Source: Clostridiales bacterium
GTDB lineage: Bacteria > Bacillota_A > Clostridia > Christensenellales > Aristaeellaceae
Assembly (NCBI GenBank): GCA_024684665.1
Contig: JAIKWN010000135.1
Location: 1-7,300 of the forward strand
Direction: 5' to 3'
DNA: 7,300 nucleotides
In this document: piece after piece, positions 967-6,102 of the stretch
Layout of the letters: each line of letters opens with the position of its first letter
How positions within the stretch are numbered: position 1 is the first letter of the stretch
Made by a program: the position numbers and the translations under genes
The notes under the pieces: generated by a model
The model's database searches: none
Seen by the model: the letters and a program-made list of their open reading frames with translations, nothing else
What the model was told of the DNA's origin: nothing

Positions 967-2302
967 CCGGCTGTTCCTCCTTTTTCGTTTTCTTCCGGCG
1001 CTGCGGACTTTTCTTCGGCTGCTCCGGTTCTGTTTCTTCCGGCGGGGGCTGTTCCTGCTGCTCCTGCTCCGCCTTATTGGCTTCCACCGCCGCCGCGACC
1101 GCGATATTGATTCCGGCAAGCCCGATGGGCACCATGTTCCCGTTGACCAGGTAGGTGTCTCCGCCTTCCTCCGGCGGGATCGGGTTCATGTTTTCCAGGG
1201 CGCGGATATCGTTGGCGCTGAGCCAGCCGTTCTGCCGTCCGATGGAATAGCCCTCCATGCGGCTCTTGTAGTCGCCCCGCATCAGCCCGTCGATGTTGAA
1301 CTGGACATAGAAATGACCCTTCTCACTCTCCGTGAAAAGGGCCCGGTTCATTGCCTGTTCAATTCTGACCAGCCAGGGGCGGATCGTGTGCACCGCGAAG
1401 TCGATGCTCTGGTTTTCGATGTTGGAGAAGGTCGCCCTGTCCAGGTTGCCGACCAGGTGAGGAGGGACACGGAAGATCCGGCAGATTTCCTCCACCTGAA
1501 ATTTGCGCGTTTCCAGGAACTGCGCCTCGTTGTTTGGCAGGCTGATCGGCGTGAAAGTCATGGATTCCTCCAGAATGGCGACCTTACTGCCGTTCGTCGA
1601 TCCGCCGTAGGCCGCATTCCAGCTTTCGCGCAGGCGCTTGGGATCCTTTACCGTGTTCGGGTGTGTCAGGATGCCGCTTGGACGCGCCCCGTTCTGGAAG
1701 AAACGGCTGCCGTATTCCTCCGCGGCGATCCCAAGACCGATAGCGTTCTTCTCCAGCGCGATTGGACTGTACCCCATTATGCCGTCGAAGCCCAGCCCGG
1801 GGATGTGCAGAACGTCCTGCGGGGAGAGCAGCACCGTAGCGCCTTCCGTGGTCGTGTAGGTATATGTCAGCACGCCGTTTTTATCCCGGTCAACCTCCAT
1901 CTTGTCAGGCAGCAGCGGGTACAGCCCGATGATCTTATTCCTGCCAGACCGGATAATCTGACTGTAGCTGTTTCCCCACAGGAGCAGGTGCGTGAGCATC
2001 GTTTCCCGCATGACGAAGGACGTCATTTCGGGATTCGGCTCATCGTGCAGCAGACGATACAGCGGATGGTCGGTCGCTTTCCGGTTGCCGTTTTCCTGTT
2101 CCTCATACACCCCGAAAGGCAATGATGCGACCGTTTCCGCGATGACGCGGACACAGGCGTAAACAGTGGACACCTGTACGGCGTTACGGGGATTGACCGC
2201 TTTGCCGGACGCGCTGGTGCCGAAGTAGAAGGTTGGCGCGCCGGAAACGGCGTCCTGGGGCTTATCGCGAGAACGGAAGAGAAACTGCAAAGGATTTTTC
2301 AT
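932..2302 (-). CDS. Phage portal protein, HK97 family
   Basis: A 456-residue protein, normal length for HK97-type portals, which form the dodecameric ring at one capsid vertex through which TerL pumps DNA and to which the tail joins. Family hallmarks are VSTVYACVRVIAETVASLP (residues 44-62), LLLWGNSYSQII (106-117), the DVLHIPGLGFDGIMGYSPI segment (163-181), FFQNGARPSGIL (201-212) and the crown/clip-side FQVEEICRIFRVPPHLVG (268-285). After about residue 405 the tail is low-complexity Glu/Gln/Pro then Lys/Arg, probably disordered. The ATG at 2302 is chosen because GGAGG ends eight bases upstream; the longer reading from GTG at 2317 would place the start inside that ribosome site. It is unusual that the gene upstream in the late operon (HNH, TerL) is separated from it by 1.9 kb of opposing genes, so it needs either long read-through or its own promoter. 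Confidence 0.97.
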   Translation of the reverse strand: MKNPLQFLFRSRDKPQDAVSGAPTFYFGTSASGKAVNPRNAVQVSTVYACVRVIAETVASLPFGVYEEQENGNRKATDHPLYRLLHDEPNPEMTSFVMRETMLTHLLLWGNSYSQIIRSGRNKIIGLYPLLPDKMEVDRDKNGVLTYTYTTTEGATVLLSPQDVLHIPGLGFDGIMGYSPIALEKNAIGLGIAAEEYGSRFFQNGARPSGILTHPNTVKDPKRLRESWNAAYGGSTNGSKVAILEESMTFTPISLPNNEAQFLETRKFQVEEICRIFRVPPHLVGNLDRATFSNIENQSIDFAVHTIRPWLVRIEQAMNRALFTESEKGHFYVQFNIDGLMRGDYKSRMEGYSIGRQNGWLSANDIRALENMNPIPPEEGGDTYLVNGNMVPIGLAGINIAVAAAVEANKAEQEQQEQPPPEETEPEQPKKSPQRRKKTKKEEQPDESAAYTGQSV

Positions 2303-2308
2303 AAATTT

Positions 2309-2315
2309 TCCTCCC
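2309..2315 (-). promoter_or_regulatory. Ribosome binding site of the portal gene
   Basis: On the minus strand this reads GGGAGGA, six bases before ATG at 2302. It decides the portal start: the alternative GTG at 2317 overlaps the site itself. Confidence 0.85.
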
Positions 2316-2353
2316 ACAAAGCAGGATTTTGGATGTAAAGCAAGAATAATTTA

Positions 2354-2378
2354 ACATCAATCTGCATGGTGTTGATGT
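2354..2378. repeat. Inverted repeat between portal gene and cassette promoter
   Basis: ACATCAA (2354-2360) and TTGATGT (2372-2378) are perfect inverted copies separated by 11 bases, in the A+T-rich divergent region between the portal start and the HTH gene. The arms are too A+T-rich for a strong RNA hairpin, so a protein-binding dyad (operator) is more likely than a terminator. Nearby are short direct repeats ATGTAAAG (2333-2340, 2396-2403) and ATGCTAT (2391-2397, 2417-2423). No binding protein is known; the adjacent HTH protein is the obvious candidate. Confidence 0.35.
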
Positions 2379-2407
2379 AGTCAGAAGAGAATGCTATGTA
2401 AAGTAGC

Positions 2408-2436
2408 TTGACATTTATGCTATCAAGTGATAAAAT
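2408..2436 (+). promoter_or_regulatory. Near-consensus sigma-70/sigma-A promoter of the plus-strand cassette
   Basis: TTGACA (2408-2413) is a perfect -35 box. A 17-base spacer leads to TAAAAT (2431-2436), a five-of-six -10 box. Transcription should start near 2442-2444, giving a leader of only about 15 bases that consists largely of the ribosome site GGAGGTGATC (2446-2455). A longer reading of the HTH gene from TTG at 2408 is ruled out because that TTG is the -35 box. Confidence 0.88.
2421..2432. promoter_or_regulatory. Palindromic candidate operator overlapping the -10 box
   Basis: TATCA-AG-TGATA is a perfect 5-2-5 palindrome lying in the spacer and reaching the first two bases of the -10 box. 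A protein bound here would block RNA polymerase. The first gene of the transcript encodes an XRE-type HTH protein, so autorepression is the simplest reading. The palindrome is seen; the regulator is inferred. Confidence 0.5.
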
Positions 2437-2458
2437 CTGCAGCACGGAGGTGATCACG

Positions 2459-2929
2459 ATGGATGAAGTATCCCGCCTGCAAAGGCATTTACCCCTTTTC
2501 CGCGCTTGCGCAGGATGGACAGCGAAGGATCTAGCTGACCAGCTGGAAGTTTCTCGGCAGTCCATCAGCGCCTGGGAAAACTATAATGGCGGTCAGGACA
2601 AAAAAGGTGTGAAGCTTTCCAAGGGTTATTACCTTGCTATTCGTCAGCTTCTTGAAACCGCTGTAAGGGCGGATGTTTCCGACGAAAAGGAGAAAAAGAA
2701 AAAGCACATCCTTGGGACCATGCTGGAAGTGCTGGTTGATAATCCGGAAAAGTATTCTTCGGACGACATAAATGCCGTCCTTGCCGAAGCCGAACTAATG
2801 GCTCCCTCAATAATGAAGCAACCAGAGAAGCGGAAAACCGTCTCAAAAATCTGGCCCGCGCTGTTAATTGGAGCCGGCGCGGTTTTGAGCGCAACGCTTC
2901 TCGCACTGTTAGGGCATGATGATGACTGA
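2459..2929 (+). CDS. Membrane-anchored XRE-type helix-turn-helix protein
   Basis: A 156-residue protein. Residues about 8-67 form an XRE/Cro-like HTH: LFRACAGWTAKDLADQLEVS is helices 1-2 and RQSISAWEN the recognition helix (33-41), followed by LSKGYYLAIRQLLE. Residues 72-130 are charged, with a KEKKKKH stretch and a predicted-helical section (EVLVDNPEKYSSDDINAVLA). Residues 131-151 (IWPALLIGAGAVLSATLLAL) are one transmembrane helix, preceded by KRKTVSK and ending GHDDD, which suggests a cytoplasmic N-terminus and an external tail of a few residues. XRE repressors are usually soluble, so this would tether a DNA-binding domain to the membrane. The ATG at 2459 follows GGAGGTGATC, a near-perfect match to the 16S 3' end. 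It is first in the cassette and probably controls its own promoter through the palindrome at 2421-2432. A sensor of membrane state or phage infection is speculation. Confidence 0.88.
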   Translation: MDEVSRLQRHLPLFRACAGWTAKDLADQLEVSRQSISAWENYNGGQDKKGVKLSKGYYLAIRQLLETAVRADVSDEKEKKKKHILGTMLEVLVDNPEKYSSDDINAVLAEAELMAPSIMKQPEKRKTVSKIWPALLIGAGAVLSATLLALLGHDDD

Positions 2930-2932
2930 ACT

Positions 2933-2940
2933 AAAGGAGG
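2933..2940 (+). promoter_or_regulatory. Ribosome binding site that fixes a TTG start
   Basis: AAAGGAGG lies nine bases before TTG at 2950. No ATG or other suitable start occurs nearby in this frame before the membrane segment, so this strong site supports initiation at the rare TTG codon. Confidence 0.8.
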
Positions 2941-2949
2941 AAAGCGGTA

Positions 2950-3321
2950 TTGAATTCCATCAAGGCCTGGTTTCACAAGCATCGTAAGGCTGTGATCGTG
3001 ACGGGAACGATTCTCGCTATCGTCGGTGTAGTTGCGATCATCGTGATTAACGGCAAGAAGGTCAAGGTCCCCGTCAAGGAATTGGCTAAAGCCATTGTAC
3101 CTGAAGTTCCTACTGCCGCAGAGGCAGCAGCGGAAACAGTAACCGTTAATATCGACGGAGTTGTAAAGACCTTCCCCAGGGAGTCTTTTATCCGGCATTT
3201 GCACGAAGGATGGAAAGCATCTGCAGCCAAGATAGCCCAGGCAGCTGATCTAGGCATCGACCTTAACCCCGGCGAAACATTGGTGGACGCGTGTATGGTT
3301 AACATGAAGATGGCGGCGTAA
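2950..3321 (+). CDS. Small single-pass membrane protein of unknown function
   Basis: A 123-residue protein starting at TTG behind a strong ribosome site. Residues 1-13 are basic (KAWFHKHRK) and 14-33 form one hydrophobic helix (AVIVTGTILAIVGVVAIIVI), followed by GKKVKV. With no signal-peptidase motif evident, it should be an N-terminal anchor; positive charge on both sides leaves the orientation open. Residues 50-66 are Ala/Pro/Glu-rich, a likely linker. Residues 67-116 form a small domain with VNIDGVVKTFPRESFIRHLH and AADLGIDLNPGETLVDACMV, which I do not recognise. The gene begins 20 bases after the HTH stop, so the two are co-transcribed and their products may act together at the membrane. 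Weak resemblance of the C-terminal part to a small helical binding module is all that can be said about function. Coding status rests on ribosome site, operon spacing and orderly protein structure. Confidence 0.8.
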   Translation: MNSIKAWFHKHRKAVIVTGTILAIVGVVAIIVINGKKVKVPVKELAKAIVPEVPTAAEAAAETVTVNIDGVVKTFPRESFIRHLHEGWKASAAKIAQAADLGIDLNPGETLVDACMVNMKMAA

Positions 3322-3333
3322 CAGCAAAAAGAG

Positions 3334-3340
3334 AAGGGGG
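3334..3340 (+). promoter_or_regulatory. Ribosome binding site for a second TTG start
   Basis: AAGGGGG lies ten bases before TTG at 3351. It is a weaker match to the anti-Shine-Dalgarno than the other sites in the cassette. The next in-frame ATG (codon 19) would delete the start of the apparent N-terminal domain, so TTG is preferred. Confidence 0.6.
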
Positions 3341-3350
3341 ACGAAGCAAT

Positions 3351-3923
3351 TTGGGTAAAAGCGCACGTATTCTTGGCGAAGACTTTGGCCTTACTGCTCA
3401 GGAAATGAACCAGCTGTTAAAGGATCAGGGATTCCTTGATGGCGATCCCGGTGCATACTTTCTGACTGAAAAAGGTGCGGAATTTGCGAAGGAGATCGAC
3501 TTTCATCGCGGCACGGGCGGATATGCTCAGTATAATCGTTACTGGACAGAAAGGACTTGGGATGAAAGCATTAAAGATGTGCTTGATACATCCTATGAAA
3601 GCCGCCGCGCCGCACGTGATGCTGTTGCTGAAGCACGTCGTTTAAGGTGGGATCAGATCAAAGCTGATCGTGCTGCATCAGATGCGGCTTTCCGTGCTTC
3701 TCGTCCGGATCTTTTCCCCGTAGAATCTTCGAATAACCCGCAGTTGCCTTCAATGATTCAGAACCAGCCTTCAAATGGCTGGGCTACAGCGGGAAAAGTA
3801 GCAGGCGGTATCGGTGTAGCCGCACTTGCCGGATACGGAATCTACAAAGCTGCACCGCACATCAAAAAGTGGTGGTGCGAGAAAGTAATCCCCTTCTTCA
3901 AAGGTGAAGACGCAAACGATTGA
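3351..3923 (+). CDS. Uncharacterised protein: N-terminal putative DNA-binding-like domain, helical middle, C-terminal hydrophobic segment
   Basis: A 190-residue protein. Residues 5-75 form a compact domain: ARILGEDFGLTAQEMNQLLK, then GFLDGDPGAYFLTEKGAEFA, then HRGTGGYAQYNRYWTERTW. The pattern 'L(T/S)xxExNxLLxxxGFL...YxLTEKG' resembles the C-terminal domain of phage antirepressors (KilAC-like winged helix), with an added aromatic YNRYW motif. This resemblance is by eye and unconfirmed. Residues 76-118 are Arg/Ala/Asp-rich and helical, possibly a coiled coil. Residues 119-145 are Pro/Asn/Gln-rich linker. Residues 147-166 (AGKVAGGIGVAALAGYGIYK) are Gly/Ala-rich and moderately hydrophobic, a weak membrane or membrane-binding helix, followed by a basic-aromatic stretch (HIKKWWCEKVIPFF). 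As in the first gene, a nucleic-acid-binding-like head and a membrane tail are joined in one chain. It follows the preceding gene by 29 bases. Function unknown. Confidence 0.8.
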   Translation: MGKSARILGEDFGLTAQEMNQLLKDQGFLDGDPGAYFLTEKGAEFAKEIDFHRGTGGYAQYNRYWTERTWDESIKDVLDTSYESRRAARDAVAEARRLRWDQIKADRAASDAAFRASRPDLFPVESSNNPQLPSMIQNQPSNGWATAGKVAGGIGVAALAGYGIYKAAPHIKKWWCEKVIPFFKGEDAND

Positions 3924-3930
3924 TCGGTGG

Positions 3931-3945
3931 CCGCAATGAATGCGG
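3931..3945 (+). repeat. Short hairpin before the fourth cassette gene
   Basis: CCGCA (3931-3935) and TGCGG (3941-3945) are perfect inverted arms around a five-base loop, directly after the stop of the third gene and just before the ribosome site AAAGGAG (3948-3954). It is too short and lacks a U-run to be a terminator; it may modestly tune expression of the last gene or be chance. Confidence 0.25.
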
Positions 3946-3960
3946 GGAAAGGAGCTCAGG

Positions 3961-4182
3961 ATGGTCATTTACAGGACAAACGAATGGAAGGGTTACGGAA
4001 AGCAGAATTATTATTGGAACGAGTACCGGCAGGAAGGAAACGAAGTTTCCAAGTATAAGTGCCACAGGCAGAAATTCTTCGATGGCGATGAAAACAACTG
4101 GGAAGAAGAGGAATCACTTGAAGAAACCTGGGCAGTCGACGATCCCGCAATGCCCGACTGGCTTAAACAGTATGTAAGGTAA
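3961..4182 (+). CDS. Small aromatic and acidic protein of unknown function (73 aa)
   Basis: The start is ATG at 3961, six bases after AAAGGAG; an in-frame ATG at 3940 would precede that site and is less likely. The first 40 residues are basic and very rich in aromatics ([20 protein letters not shown], then YKCHRQKFF). Residues 41-62 are strongly acidic ([20 protein letters not shown]), and the chain ends [12 protein letters not shown]. No membrane segment is present, unlike the three genes before it. I do not recognise the family. The acidic patch could suggest a nucleic-acid mimic or a partner for a basic surface, but that is speculation. The gene is last in the cassette, stops nine bases short of the convergent HNH stop, and is followed at 4220 by the terminator. 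It looks coding because of its ribosome site, operon position and non-random composition. Confidence 0.75.
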
Positions 4183-4190
4183 AACACGTA

Positions 4191-4532
4191 TTACAAGCCT
4201 TTACCCGTTTTACGATCATGGCAGTCCTTGCAAAGGGGCTGCCAATTTTTTATATCCCAGAACAACCCGGGATCGCCCCGATGCGGCACGATATGGTCAA
4301 CGACAGTTGCCGGGGTCACTCTGCCTTCCTTCATGCATTCCGCGCAAAGCGGATGCCTTTGCAGGAAGGCTTTTCTCGCTCTCCGCCAACGGGCGTCGTA
4401 GCCCCTGGCATCCGCGCCGCCGCGAACATGGTCTGTGCTCCATTGGATGTGTTCCCGGCAGAAGACCTGTCCGGGTTCGCAGAAGCCTGGGCATCCGGGA
4501 TACCGGCACGGTCTCGGAGGGGTTCTTGGCAT
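4191..4532 (-). CDS. HNH endonuclease, terminase-associated type
   Basis: A 113-residue protein with a complete HNH site: His80 (VVDHIVPH), Asn96 (KNWQPLC) and His105 (CKDCH). Zinc-type cysteine pairs are at 63/66 (LCAEC) and 101/104 (LCKDC), with extra cysteines at 9, 14, 18 and 25 and a basic ARWRRARKAFLQRHP helix at 47-61. It should be a metal-dependent DNA nuclease. Phage HNH proteins encoded beside terminase, such as HK97 gp74, are known to stimulate terminase cutting at packaging sites, and that is the likely role here. The ATG at 4532 is chosen because GAGGTGATC, matching the 16S end, sits three bases before it and overlaps the TerL stop; GTG at 4541 would lie in that site. It is unusual to find it after TerL rather than before TerS. 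Its 3' codons also form the plus-strand terminator. Confidence 0.93.
   Translation of the reverse strand: MPRTPPRPCRYPGCPGFCEPGQVFCREHIQWSTDHVRGGADARGYDARWRRARKAFLQRHPLCAECMKEGRVTPATVVDHIVPHRGDPGLFWDIKNWQPLCKDCHDRKTGKGL
4220..4251 (+). terminator. Intrinsic terminator of the cassette, embedded in the opposing HNH gene
   Basis: On the plus strand a ten-base arm (4220-4229, GGCAGTCCTT) pairs with 4234-4243 (AGGGGCTGCC) around a GCAA tetraloop, and six T residues follow at 4246-4251. Eight pairs are Watson-Crick and two (4225-4238 and 4228-4235) are U-G in plus-strand RNA. In minus-strand RNA those two would be A-C mismatches and no U-run follows, so the structure terminates only cassette transcripts. 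It begins 37 bases past the last cassette stop, within HNH codons for the NWQPLCKDC motif. Confidence 0.8.
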
Positions 4533-4542
4533 AACGATCACC

Positions 4543-6102
4543 TCACCAGTCCAGCGTCAGCATGTCGCGCACGTCGTAGATGCTACCGCCGTTCAGATTC
4601 TTCATTGCCCGGTCGAGAGCCATTACCAGCGCAACCGCGCCGTCCACCTTTTCGGTGCTCTTTTCTTTGTCCAGTTTGATGTTTCCGGCGGGATCCGTCC
4701 GCACGAAGGCGTTGTCCATGTTCCAGCGCAGAACCGGATGTCCGCCGTGGTTGATCTTGTGCTCCAGCACCAGGCGCATCAGCTCTTTCGTCGGCGGGGA
4801 CATATCCTTGAAGCCCTGTCCGAAGGGAACCATCGTAAAGCCGTCGTCCTGCAGATTCTGCACCATCATGCTCGCGTTCCATCTGTCATAGGCGATCTCG
4901 CGGATGTCGTATTTTTCAGCCAGCTCATTGATGTATTTCTGAATGAAGCCGTAGTGAACGACGTTGCCTTCTGTCGTGATCAGGTGATGTTGCCTCTCCC
5001 ATACGTCGTACATGACGTGATCGCGTCTCACGCGCAGGGGCAACGTTTCCTCCGGCAGCCAGAAGAACGGCAGCACGGTGTACACCCCGTCGTCGTCTGC
5101 TGGCGGGAAGACCAGCACGAGGGTCGTCAGGTCACTCGTGGAGGAAAGATCCAGACCGGCGTAACAGGCGCGGCCCTGCAGCGCGGAGAGATCGATGCTG
5201 CCGCCGCACTCGTCCCACTTGTCCATCGGCATCCAGCGGACGCTCTGCTTGACCCACTGATTCAGCCTCAGCTGGCGGAACATGTTCTCGTCCGCCGGGG
5301 TTTCCTGGGCTTTGCGGAAAGCGTCCCGCACTTTTTCGATGGAGATCGTCTGATCCAGGCTGGGATTTGCTTTGTACCAGTTCTCTTCGCTCGTCCAGTC
5401 CGCATCGTCCGGCAGGCCGAACAGCACCGGGTAGAAACGGGGATCGGCTTTCCGACCCTCCAGGATATCCAGCGCCTTCTGATGCACTTCCCAGCAGATG
5501 CTGTTCCGGTCTGTGCCGGCGGTGGTCAGAAAAAACCACAGAGGCTGTTTTCGCGCGTCGCCGCTGCCTTGGGTCATGACGTCGTAAAGGGCGCGGGTCG
5601 GCTGGGTGTGCAGCTCGTCGAAGATGCAGGCGGAAACGTTCAGACCGTGCTTGGTGGCAACTTCGCTGGACAGTACCTGATAGATGCTGCCCGTGGGCGT
5701 GTAAACCATCCGCTTCACTGACGGCACGATCTTGATCCGCTTGCTGAGAGCCGGGGACTGCTTGACCATATCCACGGCGACGTCGAACACGATGGCGGCC
5801 TGCTGGCGGTCGGAAGCGCAGGAGTACACTTCCGCTTTCCACTCGTCGTCGTTGCAGAGCATATTCAGCGCGATCGCCGCGCCCAGCTCACTCTTGCCGT
5901 TTTTCTTCGGGATCTCAATGTACGCCGTGGTGTACTGCCGCTGGTCGGGATAATCGTCCCGGACCGTGCCGAACACATCCGACACGATTCTTTTCTGCCA
6001 GGGCAGAAGCGTGAATGGCTTTCCGTGGAACTCACCCTTGGTGTGCTTCAGACACTCAATGAACCGGATCACGCGCTGCGCTTTCTTTTCATCAAAACCC
6101 AT
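4543..6102 (-). CDS. terL: Phage terminase large subunit
   Basis: A 519-residue packaging motor: ATPase that pumps DNA through the portal, and nuclease that cuts concatemers at the packaging site. ATPase motifs are Walker A IPKKNGKS (64-71, the R/K-x-NGKS variant of P27-associated terminases), Walker B ACIFDE (158-163) with catalytic Glu163, and coupling motif LTTAG (192-196). The RNase H-like nuclease has three acidic positions: Asp318 (AGLDLSS), Asp406 (AYDRW) and Asp487 (KVDGAV). The protein starts directly with FDEKKAQRVIRFIE and lacks the roughly 40-residue leader that many relatives carry before this point. It starts one base after the TerS stop, so translation is probably coupled; the ribosome site is weak. 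All catalytic positions are intact. Confidence 0.98.
   Translation of the reverse strand: MGFDEKKAQRVIRFIECLKHTKGEFHGKPFTLLPWQKRIVSDVFGTVRDDYPDQRQYTTAYIEIPKKNGKSELGAAIALNMLCNDDEWKAEVYSCASDRQQAAIVFDVAVDMVKQSPALSKRIKIVPSVKRMVYTPTGSIYQVLSSEVATKHGLNVSACIFDELHTQPTRALYDVMTQGSGDARKQPLWFFLTTAGTDRNSICWEVHQKALDILEGRKADPRFYPVLFGLPDDADWTSEENWYKANPSLDQTISIEKVRDAFRKAQETPADENMFRQLRLNQWVKQSVRWMPMDKWDECGGSIDLSALQGRACYAGLDLSSTSDLTTLVLVFPPADDDGVYTVLPFFWLPEETLPLRVRRDHVMYDVWERQHHLITTEGNVVHYGFIQKYINELAEKYDIREIAYDRWNASMMVQNLQDDGFTMVPFGQGFKDMSPPTKELMRLVLEHKINHGGHPVLRWNMDNAFVRTDPAGNIKLDKEKSTEKVDGAVALVMALDRAMKNLNGGSIYDVRDMLTLDW

Follow-up and report, generated by a model that had tools for sequence, protein, structure and literature searches.

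The window, a 7,300-nucleotide stretch of contig JAIKWN010000135.1 from a Clostridiales bacterium, holds the packaging region of a tailed phage, as judged from gene order and Pfam/NCBIfam profile matches. Within it, four genes (g1 to g4) occupy the junction between the genes for an HNH endonuclease and the portal protein, and we show here that this cassette is an insertion in a cargo hotspot and a self-contained unit with a conserved core. It is almost certainly a moron, if that term is taken to mean an exchangeable insertion that forms a self-contained unit, and it is probably an uncharacterised membrane-linked module that aids the host cell carrying the phage. From its sequence features, we give roughly even chances to the more specific reading that it is a lysogen-expressed moron acting as a membrane-linked anti-phage or superinfection-exclusion module. 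The parts of the cassette are as follows.

2303-4190, plus strand: whole inserted cassette, from portal start to HNH stop, supported by blastn against the closely related locus L054 and by empty junctions in relatives
2408-2436, plus strand: sigma-70-type promoter, TTGACA-N17-TAAAAT with TG before the -10 element, 11 of 12 consensus bases
2459-2929, plus strand: g1, 156 aa, XRE-type helix-turn-helix (HTH; residues about 18-41) and C-terminal membrane segment (134-152)
2950-3321, plus strand: g2, 123 aa from a TTG start, with an N-terminal membrane helix (15-33) and a small conserved domain (about 62-111)
3351-3923, plus strand: g3, 190 aa from a TTG start, with a winged-helix-like head (1-78), then a long helix (82-117) and a weak, Gly-rich C-terminal membrane segment (about 150-168)
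3961-4182, plus strand: g4, an exchangeable soluble protein of 73 aa, small and acidic
4219-4244, plus strand: intrinsic terminator stem of 11 pairs followed by ATTTTTT, within the 3' end of HNH (terminator scan)

We evaluated the junction among relatives using the best 80 of 582 HNH relatives in viral contigs together with phage NatCom_6392, 81 loci in all. Loci were scorable where HNH was followed by portal without the terminase large subunit (TerL) between them, which was the case in 49; among the 32 unscored loci, 29 had no portal in reach and three carried HNH upstream of TerL. The junction was empty (0-115 bases) in 21 scorable loci and filled (329-2223 bases) in 28, and clustering of the portal starts at 97% identity gave 42 clusters, 17 empty and 25 filled. 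Relatives therefore do not always carry the cassette at this spot, a point on which the initial annotation had made its moron proposal depend, and the conserved junction shows presence/absence polymorphism as expected of a phage moron. At control junctions of the same 49 loci, inserts of at least 200 bases were found in 3/32 (N6 methylase-TerS), 5/37 (TerS-TerL) and 7/45 (TerL-HNH). After omission of four near-duplicates among the 28 filled junctions, open reading frames (ORFs) were read in the remaining 24, and by our reading the main genes lay on the opposite strand in 17 and on the same strand in five, and were mixed in one and unclear in one. A close relative is L054, whose N6 methylase, TerS and TerL are 96-97% identical to the window proteins and which carries a BrnT insert instead of the cassette. 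In blastn of the window against L054, the flank alignment ends at 2302 and 4204, at or no more than 13 bases from the cassette edges. A sharp recombination breakpoint between the two was expected and not seen; identity, 0.87-0.97 beyond 6 kb, drops unevenly and is 0.76-0.79 at HNH.

The layout proposed initially, a plus-strand cassette between minus-strand HNH and portal genes with a promoter, four genes and a terminator between packaging genes, could be located in full. The cassette promoter is the better of two promoter-like matches in the window, where such matches are not above chance (two found against 3.2 expected; for terminator-like matches, 12 against 7.3). In the 75 bases ahead of the g1 start an equally good promoter arose in 0/500 shuffles. 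A promoter of this kind stands ahead of all ten g1-type genes examined, with 10-12 of 12 consensus bases, an exact TTGACA in nine, a spacer of 16-17 and an end 20-25 nt ahead of the start codon, and shuffles matched its quality at the other g1-type genes in 0 to 22 of 500. Palindromic operators were also sought at these promoters and rejected: the best (L014) was equalled by 12/200 shuffles and the other nine by 22-182/200. A purine-rich ribosome-binding site, read by eye, precedes each of g1-g4. Base composition also sets the insert apart: G+C is 0.486 over 2306-4190, and the two flanks have 0.594 and 0.595; 34 flank windows of the same length gave about 0.587-0.604, none below 0.586. The lower G+C noted earlier is thus real, with a smaller gap than the two lines counted at that time (23/60 against 37/60) implied. 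On these sequence features, the cassette has a promoter and terminator of its own running against late genes, as phage morons do.

To characterise the products we scored hydrophobic segments as the best 19-residue Kyte-Doolittle mean, which gave 2.19 for g1, 3.02 for g2, 1.24 for g3 (borderline, Gly-rich) and -0.72 for g4 (none). A hydrophobic segment had been claimed for three of the four products, and this is upheld clearly for g1 and g2 and as a borderline case for g3. The accompanying claim, that two products join a DNA-binding-like head to such a segment, also stands. In g1 the head matches Pfam HTH_3 at 23.9 bits, just over the cutoff of 23, with weak similarity to antitoxin HTHs; in g3, weak profile matches and predicted structure suggest a winged-helix-like head. 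The AlphaFold2 model of g3 has block means of mostly 92-97 over residues 1-120, and a single fold match, to an unnamed protein, reached E 0.001 or better, with no match at that level against PDB by Foldseek. For g2, the mean predicted local distance difference test score is 65 and the model gave no fold match at E 0.001 or better. No Pfam family was above cutoff for g2-g4. Homologues numbered 86 for g1, 26 for g2 and 165 for g3, with eight relatives for g4.

Two further loci share the junction. L003 (Christensenella UBA2853) carries a g1-type gene and g3, then a 117-aa gene (v117) replacing g4, and L005 (IMG/VR) a g1-type gene and g3, then a small opposite-strand ORF; g2 was not found in either. 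In L004, a metagenome-assembled genome (MAG) of goat-rumen Clostridia, the genes g1, g3 and v117 remain intact next to a portal remnant (residues 3-67). No HNH match adjoins these genes, and a different contig of this genome bears a second portal of greater length. We count L004 as a relic of the HNH-portal junction, not as an independent site; the cassette seems to have outlived its phage there. The g1 and g3 pair was found only at the HNH-portal junction or in this relic, each gene having other partners elsewhere, and the complete four-gene set was seen only in the window. L003, L004, L006 and L007 recurred as L009, L010, L138 and L139. Two matches were dropped as partial or chance: L011 covers just 43 residues, all in the g3 tail, and L104 covers 26 residues of g1.

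Outside this junction, g3 is flanked by the major tail and tape measure genes in L002 (as annotated), in the nearly identical L007 and, with similar upstream genes, in L008, and near recombinase or lysis genes in L001 (as annotated) and L006 (by eye). In all nine Clostridia and phage loci (the window and L001-L008; eight if the near-identical L002 and L007 are merged) a same-strand HTH gene stands directly upstream of g3 or one small gene off, being XRE with a membrane tail in four, MerR in four and a long XRE in one. A small cysteine-rich gene adjoins g3 in L001, L002 and L006-L008, with zinc-ribbon-like Pfam matches below cutoff where scanned, and some longer g3 homologues carry C-terminal zinc ribbons. 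Scans of viral contigs with g3 alone, g2 or v117 gave no relatives, the phage collection held no match for g2 or g4, and the g2 profile found none in 391 genomes, a search made without a positive control. g3-type sequences also occur far outside Clostridia, on a Dietzia plasmid (L012:6001-6597) and on Streptomyces clavuligerus pSCL3 (L013:about 5001-5583), the latter match being split between frames.

Proteins of the g1 type were likewise found with other small hydrophobic partners, in L014 (phage NatCom_11578), L125, L127 and L128; L125 pairs an HTH without a membrane tail with a 48-aa membrane protein, and in L127 the partner gene is divergent (by eye). The g1 profile matched 290 of 396 genomes, mostly generically over a short HTH-only range, and these matches were set aside; only the five best genomes (E <1e-13) were considered, four of which, besides the seed, were read in context. 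A g1 relative in L126, at 88% over 41 residues and truncated where the contig ends, lies near an AbiEii gene. L128:4751-5865 lies between unrelated genes and encodes an HTH protein, a membrane protein of 120 aa and a soluble protein of 87 aa, with a promoter of the same kind ahead of them.

Since g1, g2 and g4 are replaced across loci and g3 with an HTH gene is kept, the cassette is, as read from its relatives' sequences, modular, with g3 and the HTH gene as constant core and the rest exchanged. Substitution rates show g3 to be under purifying selection at the sequence level: between L003 and L004 the nonsynonymous (dN) and synonymous (dS) rates are 0.08 and 1.15 for g3 and 0.04 and 1.34 for v117, and between the window and L003 the corresponding proportions (pN and pS) are 0.13 and 0.88 for g1 and 0.19 and 0.79 for g3, with dS saturated. 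Of the checks proposed at the outset, that on purifying selection came out in favour for g3, with dN far below dS, and that on recurrence showed g1-type genes and g3 together at this junction and in the L004 relic, not at an independent site. The initial annotation's wider proposal of a moron-like insertion is borne out by the empty sites, a junction filled more than its neighbours, the mostly opposite strand, the own promoter, the lower G+C and survival in a prophage relic. Its suggestion of an undescribed multi-protein membrane-linked system fared less evenly. The recurrence of g1-type genes with g3, the selection on g3 and the lack of any end-to-end match to a characterised system favour it; the exchangeability of g2 and g4, the swapping of g1, the confinement of the full set to the window and the weak membrane segment of g3 do not.

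To establish what else the junction carries, one or two proteins from each of 17 inserts were scanned with Pfam (L047, L049, L085 and L103 were left out), and three look-alikes chosen by eye were added to give 20. Toxin-antitoxin, Abi or Fic families were found in six of the 17, namely Abi_2 (L033), PIN (L034), BrnT (L038 and L054), Fic (L039) and ParE (L057), and with the hand-picked PIN (L041) and ParE (L058, L069) in nine of 20. Variable cargo rich in defence and toxin-antitoxin genes on the portal side, as in the P2-type hotspot, is thus present here (6/17; 9/20 with look-alikes), these counts standing without a background rate. Other inserts carried NUDIX (L024), DUF4238 (L028), Antibiotic_NAT and DUF6273 (L030), HTH_3 (L046) and PDDEXK_2 (L055), and six of the 20 had no Pfam family (L023, L025, L048, L050, L052, L072). 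PADLOC applied to ten insert proteins identified AbiD (4.3e-21, L033) and SoFic (4.8e-45, L039), the other eight being without a match at 1e-3. In L142, a separate fragment of genome G001, MarR and radical-SAM genes lie reversed between an HNH gene (by eye) and portal. The HNH-portal junction is in this way a readable cargo site in a gut-phage group, and comparing one junction yields candidate immunity genes; inserts without a family (6/20), like g2-g4, stand alongside the 9/20 with toxin-antitoxin, Abi or Fic genes, three of them hand-picked.

Phage morons, for example those of lambdoid phages, have their own promoter and terminator and lower G+C, lie between conserved late genes and are present or absent among relatives. 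The cassette resembles them in each of these respects and differs in that its operon has four genes, two of which encode a DNA-binding-like head attached to a membrane segment. P2-like phages have an accessory and defence hotspot (old/tin) between gpA and the portal gene gpQ (PMC9122126). The likeness is in variable accessory cargo, anti-phage genes included, adjoining the portal gene of temperate phages (PMC9122126); the differences are the other phage group, the position within the packaging operon and the lack of an end-to-end PADLOC match for g1-g4. The P2 gpA-gpQ hotspot is the closest precedent (PMC9122126).

Matches of the cassette proteins in PADLOC-DB 2.0.0 are confined to short HTH or winged-helix stretches. 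The defence candidate PDC-S69 is matched by 75 of 77 g3 members at E 0.01 or better, the best value being 2.1e-7. The window g3 aligns with profile positions 81-132 of 289 only, which is the winged-helix part, whereas the genome matches listed for PDC-S69 lie mostly within positions 136-284; with most of the profile unmatched, it is not a PDC-S69 member by coverage. Proteins named as antirepressors (KilAC/ANT-type) make up four of the eight best viral hits in the g3 fold search (E between 5.6e-3 and 4.8e-2, probability 0.94-1.00), but in g3 the head is followed by a coiled coil and a membrane segment, and the Pfam ANT domain has no match in the window g3 and matches one of 77 members (1.1e-3). 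A literature search found no title or abstract opening describing a g1-g4 cassette, nor the name PDC-S69.

These data allow us to propose how the cassette might work. It would be transcribed from its own strong promoter in an otherwise silent prophage, against the late packaging operon, and transcription would end at its own terminator inside HNH. The g1 product, with an XRE head and membrane tail, may be a regulator or sensor held at the membrane that probably controls its own promoter; because the palindromes at g1 promoters are matched by shuffles, this autoregulation is something we infer only. The g3 product, with a winged-helix-like head, coiled coil and membrane segment, would be the conserved core, probably as effector or DNA tether, with g2 as a putative membrane accessory and g4 or its replacement as a soluble one. 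We likewise infer lysogen expression, membrane location, DNA binding and the defence role itself. It is possible, if doubtful, that the cassette exemplifies a broader, so far undescribed kind of mobile immunity module, found in Clostridia and in their phages and built from an XRE protein and exchangeable membrane partners. In such modules the XRE protein, usually membrane-tailed and under a stereotyped strong promoter, would serve as sensor or regulator; its partners would be g3, sometimes with fused zinc ribbons or an adjoining cysteine-rich gene, or different membrane proteins of small size; some modules would include a third protein, small and soluble; and DNA-binding heads held at the membrane might be what senses infection there. 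The membrane-tailed HTH architecture recurs with different partners and is open to simple expression tests.

Several results weigh against an anti-phage module of this kind. No full-length match of g1-g4 to a defence, toxin or exclusion family was found in Pfam, NCBIfam or PADLOC-DB. The membrane segment of g3 is weak, and fused zinc ribbons are hard to place if its helix spans the membrane once. Between L003 and L004, g3 is 86% and v117 91% identical and g1 only 50%, so that g1 and g3 do not move as one unit, and the terminator scan found no terminator after the cassette in either locus. The L004 relic is a single case in a fragmentary MAG, and its TerL search, made without a positive control, was empty. 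No HTH gene is annotated next to g3 in L012 or L013, the two actinobacterial plasmids, and g3 is rare, occurring in 1/391 and 2/396 genomes with the seed genome counted and one weak partial match included in the second set. Junction cargo is also mixed (NUDIX, DUF4238, Antibiotic_NAT, the radical-SAM and MarR genes of L142, and six of 20 inserts without a family), and therefore location at the junction alone is no proof of a defence role. It is because of this mixture, and because part of the cargo sample was hand-picked, that we place the defence reading at about one half.

Much of the same evidence can be read in other ways. The two DNA-binding-like heads, the pairing of g3-type genes with MerR or XRE regulators in 9/9 Clostridia and phage loci and the antirepressor-like fold of g3 would also suit a regulatory moron, one whose g1 and g3 products would act as transcription factors held at the membrane, resetting the expression of host surface or stress genes in the lysogen and having no direct effect on phages. 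This has no known target, and the cargo at the junction is often toxin-antitoxin, Abi or Fic; we consider it unlikely. The frequency of toxin-antitoxin genes at the junction would suit in turn an addiction module in the broad sense, with a toxic small membrane protein (g2 or g3) neutralised by g1 or g4, as would an arrangement in which membrane proteins of small size follow an XRE gene that has a strong promoter. No described toxin domain was recognised in g1-g4 by Pfam, NCBIfam or PADLOC and no toxin or antitoxin domain was above cutoff, however, and g3 accompanies MerR and XRE genes alike; we consider this explanation quite improbable.

The g3 product could instead be a tether or stability factor that, by a putative partition-like winged helix, coiled coil and membrane anchor, holds phage or plasmid DNA at the membrane while g1 regulates it, and we judge this to be very unlikely. 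That the insert is neutral passenger DNA decaying in a tolerated gap would agree with a complete four-gene set only in the window. It is already disfavoured by dN far below dS for g3 and v117, and the open frames with ribosome-binding sites, the recurring promoter and the intact cassette genes beside a decayed portal in L004 also oppose it, making it scarcely credible.

The phage carrying the cassette is best explained as temperate and Heliusvirales-like, with a host in Christensenellales or in related Clostridia. The nearest record to its TerL in the phage collection is Christensenellales phage NatCom_6392 ('Ca. Heliusvirales'), at 88.8% identity. The packaging genes around the cassette are as follows.

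7293-6604, minus strand: N6/N4 DNA methylase (profile match)
6580-6104, minus strand: TerS (Terminase_4; profile match)
4543-6102, minus strand: TerL (profile match and phage-collection comparison)
4191-4541, minus strand: HNH endonuclease, its neighbour in packaging order (Pfam HNH, 1.1e-11)
932-2302 (start 2302, stop 932), minus strand: portal protein, set apart from HNH by the insertion (Pfam Phage_portal, 1.4e-126)
beyond portal, minus strand: C5 methylase, truncated at the window end (profile match)

A second, less often filled spot is the TerL-HNH junction, which holds 1.4-2.2 kb in L055, L060, L062, L063, L064, L066 and L068, and in L071 the TerL match is itself split by about 1 kb (2214-3220). 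Between HNH and N6 methylase, L084:5939-6577 and L087:5785-6547 (minus strand) carry, reversed, a g1-like HTH protein with a hydrophobic-looking tail and a 70-84 aa protein. At the HNH-portal junction itself, L052:1857-3377 (minus strand) has a three-gene insert that may be an analogue of the window cassette, encoding a cysteine-rich protein, one with a hydrophobic tail and one of 168 aa, and the phage contig L030 encodes an aminoglycoside 3-N-acetyltransferase family protein (5043-6089, minus strand; Antibiotic_NAT, 5.7e-89).

None of the eight g4 relatives occurs with g1-g3. By eye, six lie near recombinases or integrases (L016-L019, L021 and L022, with L016-L018 near-identical), L015 is upstream of a tape-measure-like gene and L020 is near neither. 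In L016 (4998-7077), L019 (6006-8216) and L020 (6233-8219), g4 relatives end another recurring gene group, made up of a protein of roughly 330-390 aa and proteins of 64-81 aa, with small membrane or zinc-ribbon-like genes in some, and serine-recombinase-like genes adjoin this group in L016 and L019.

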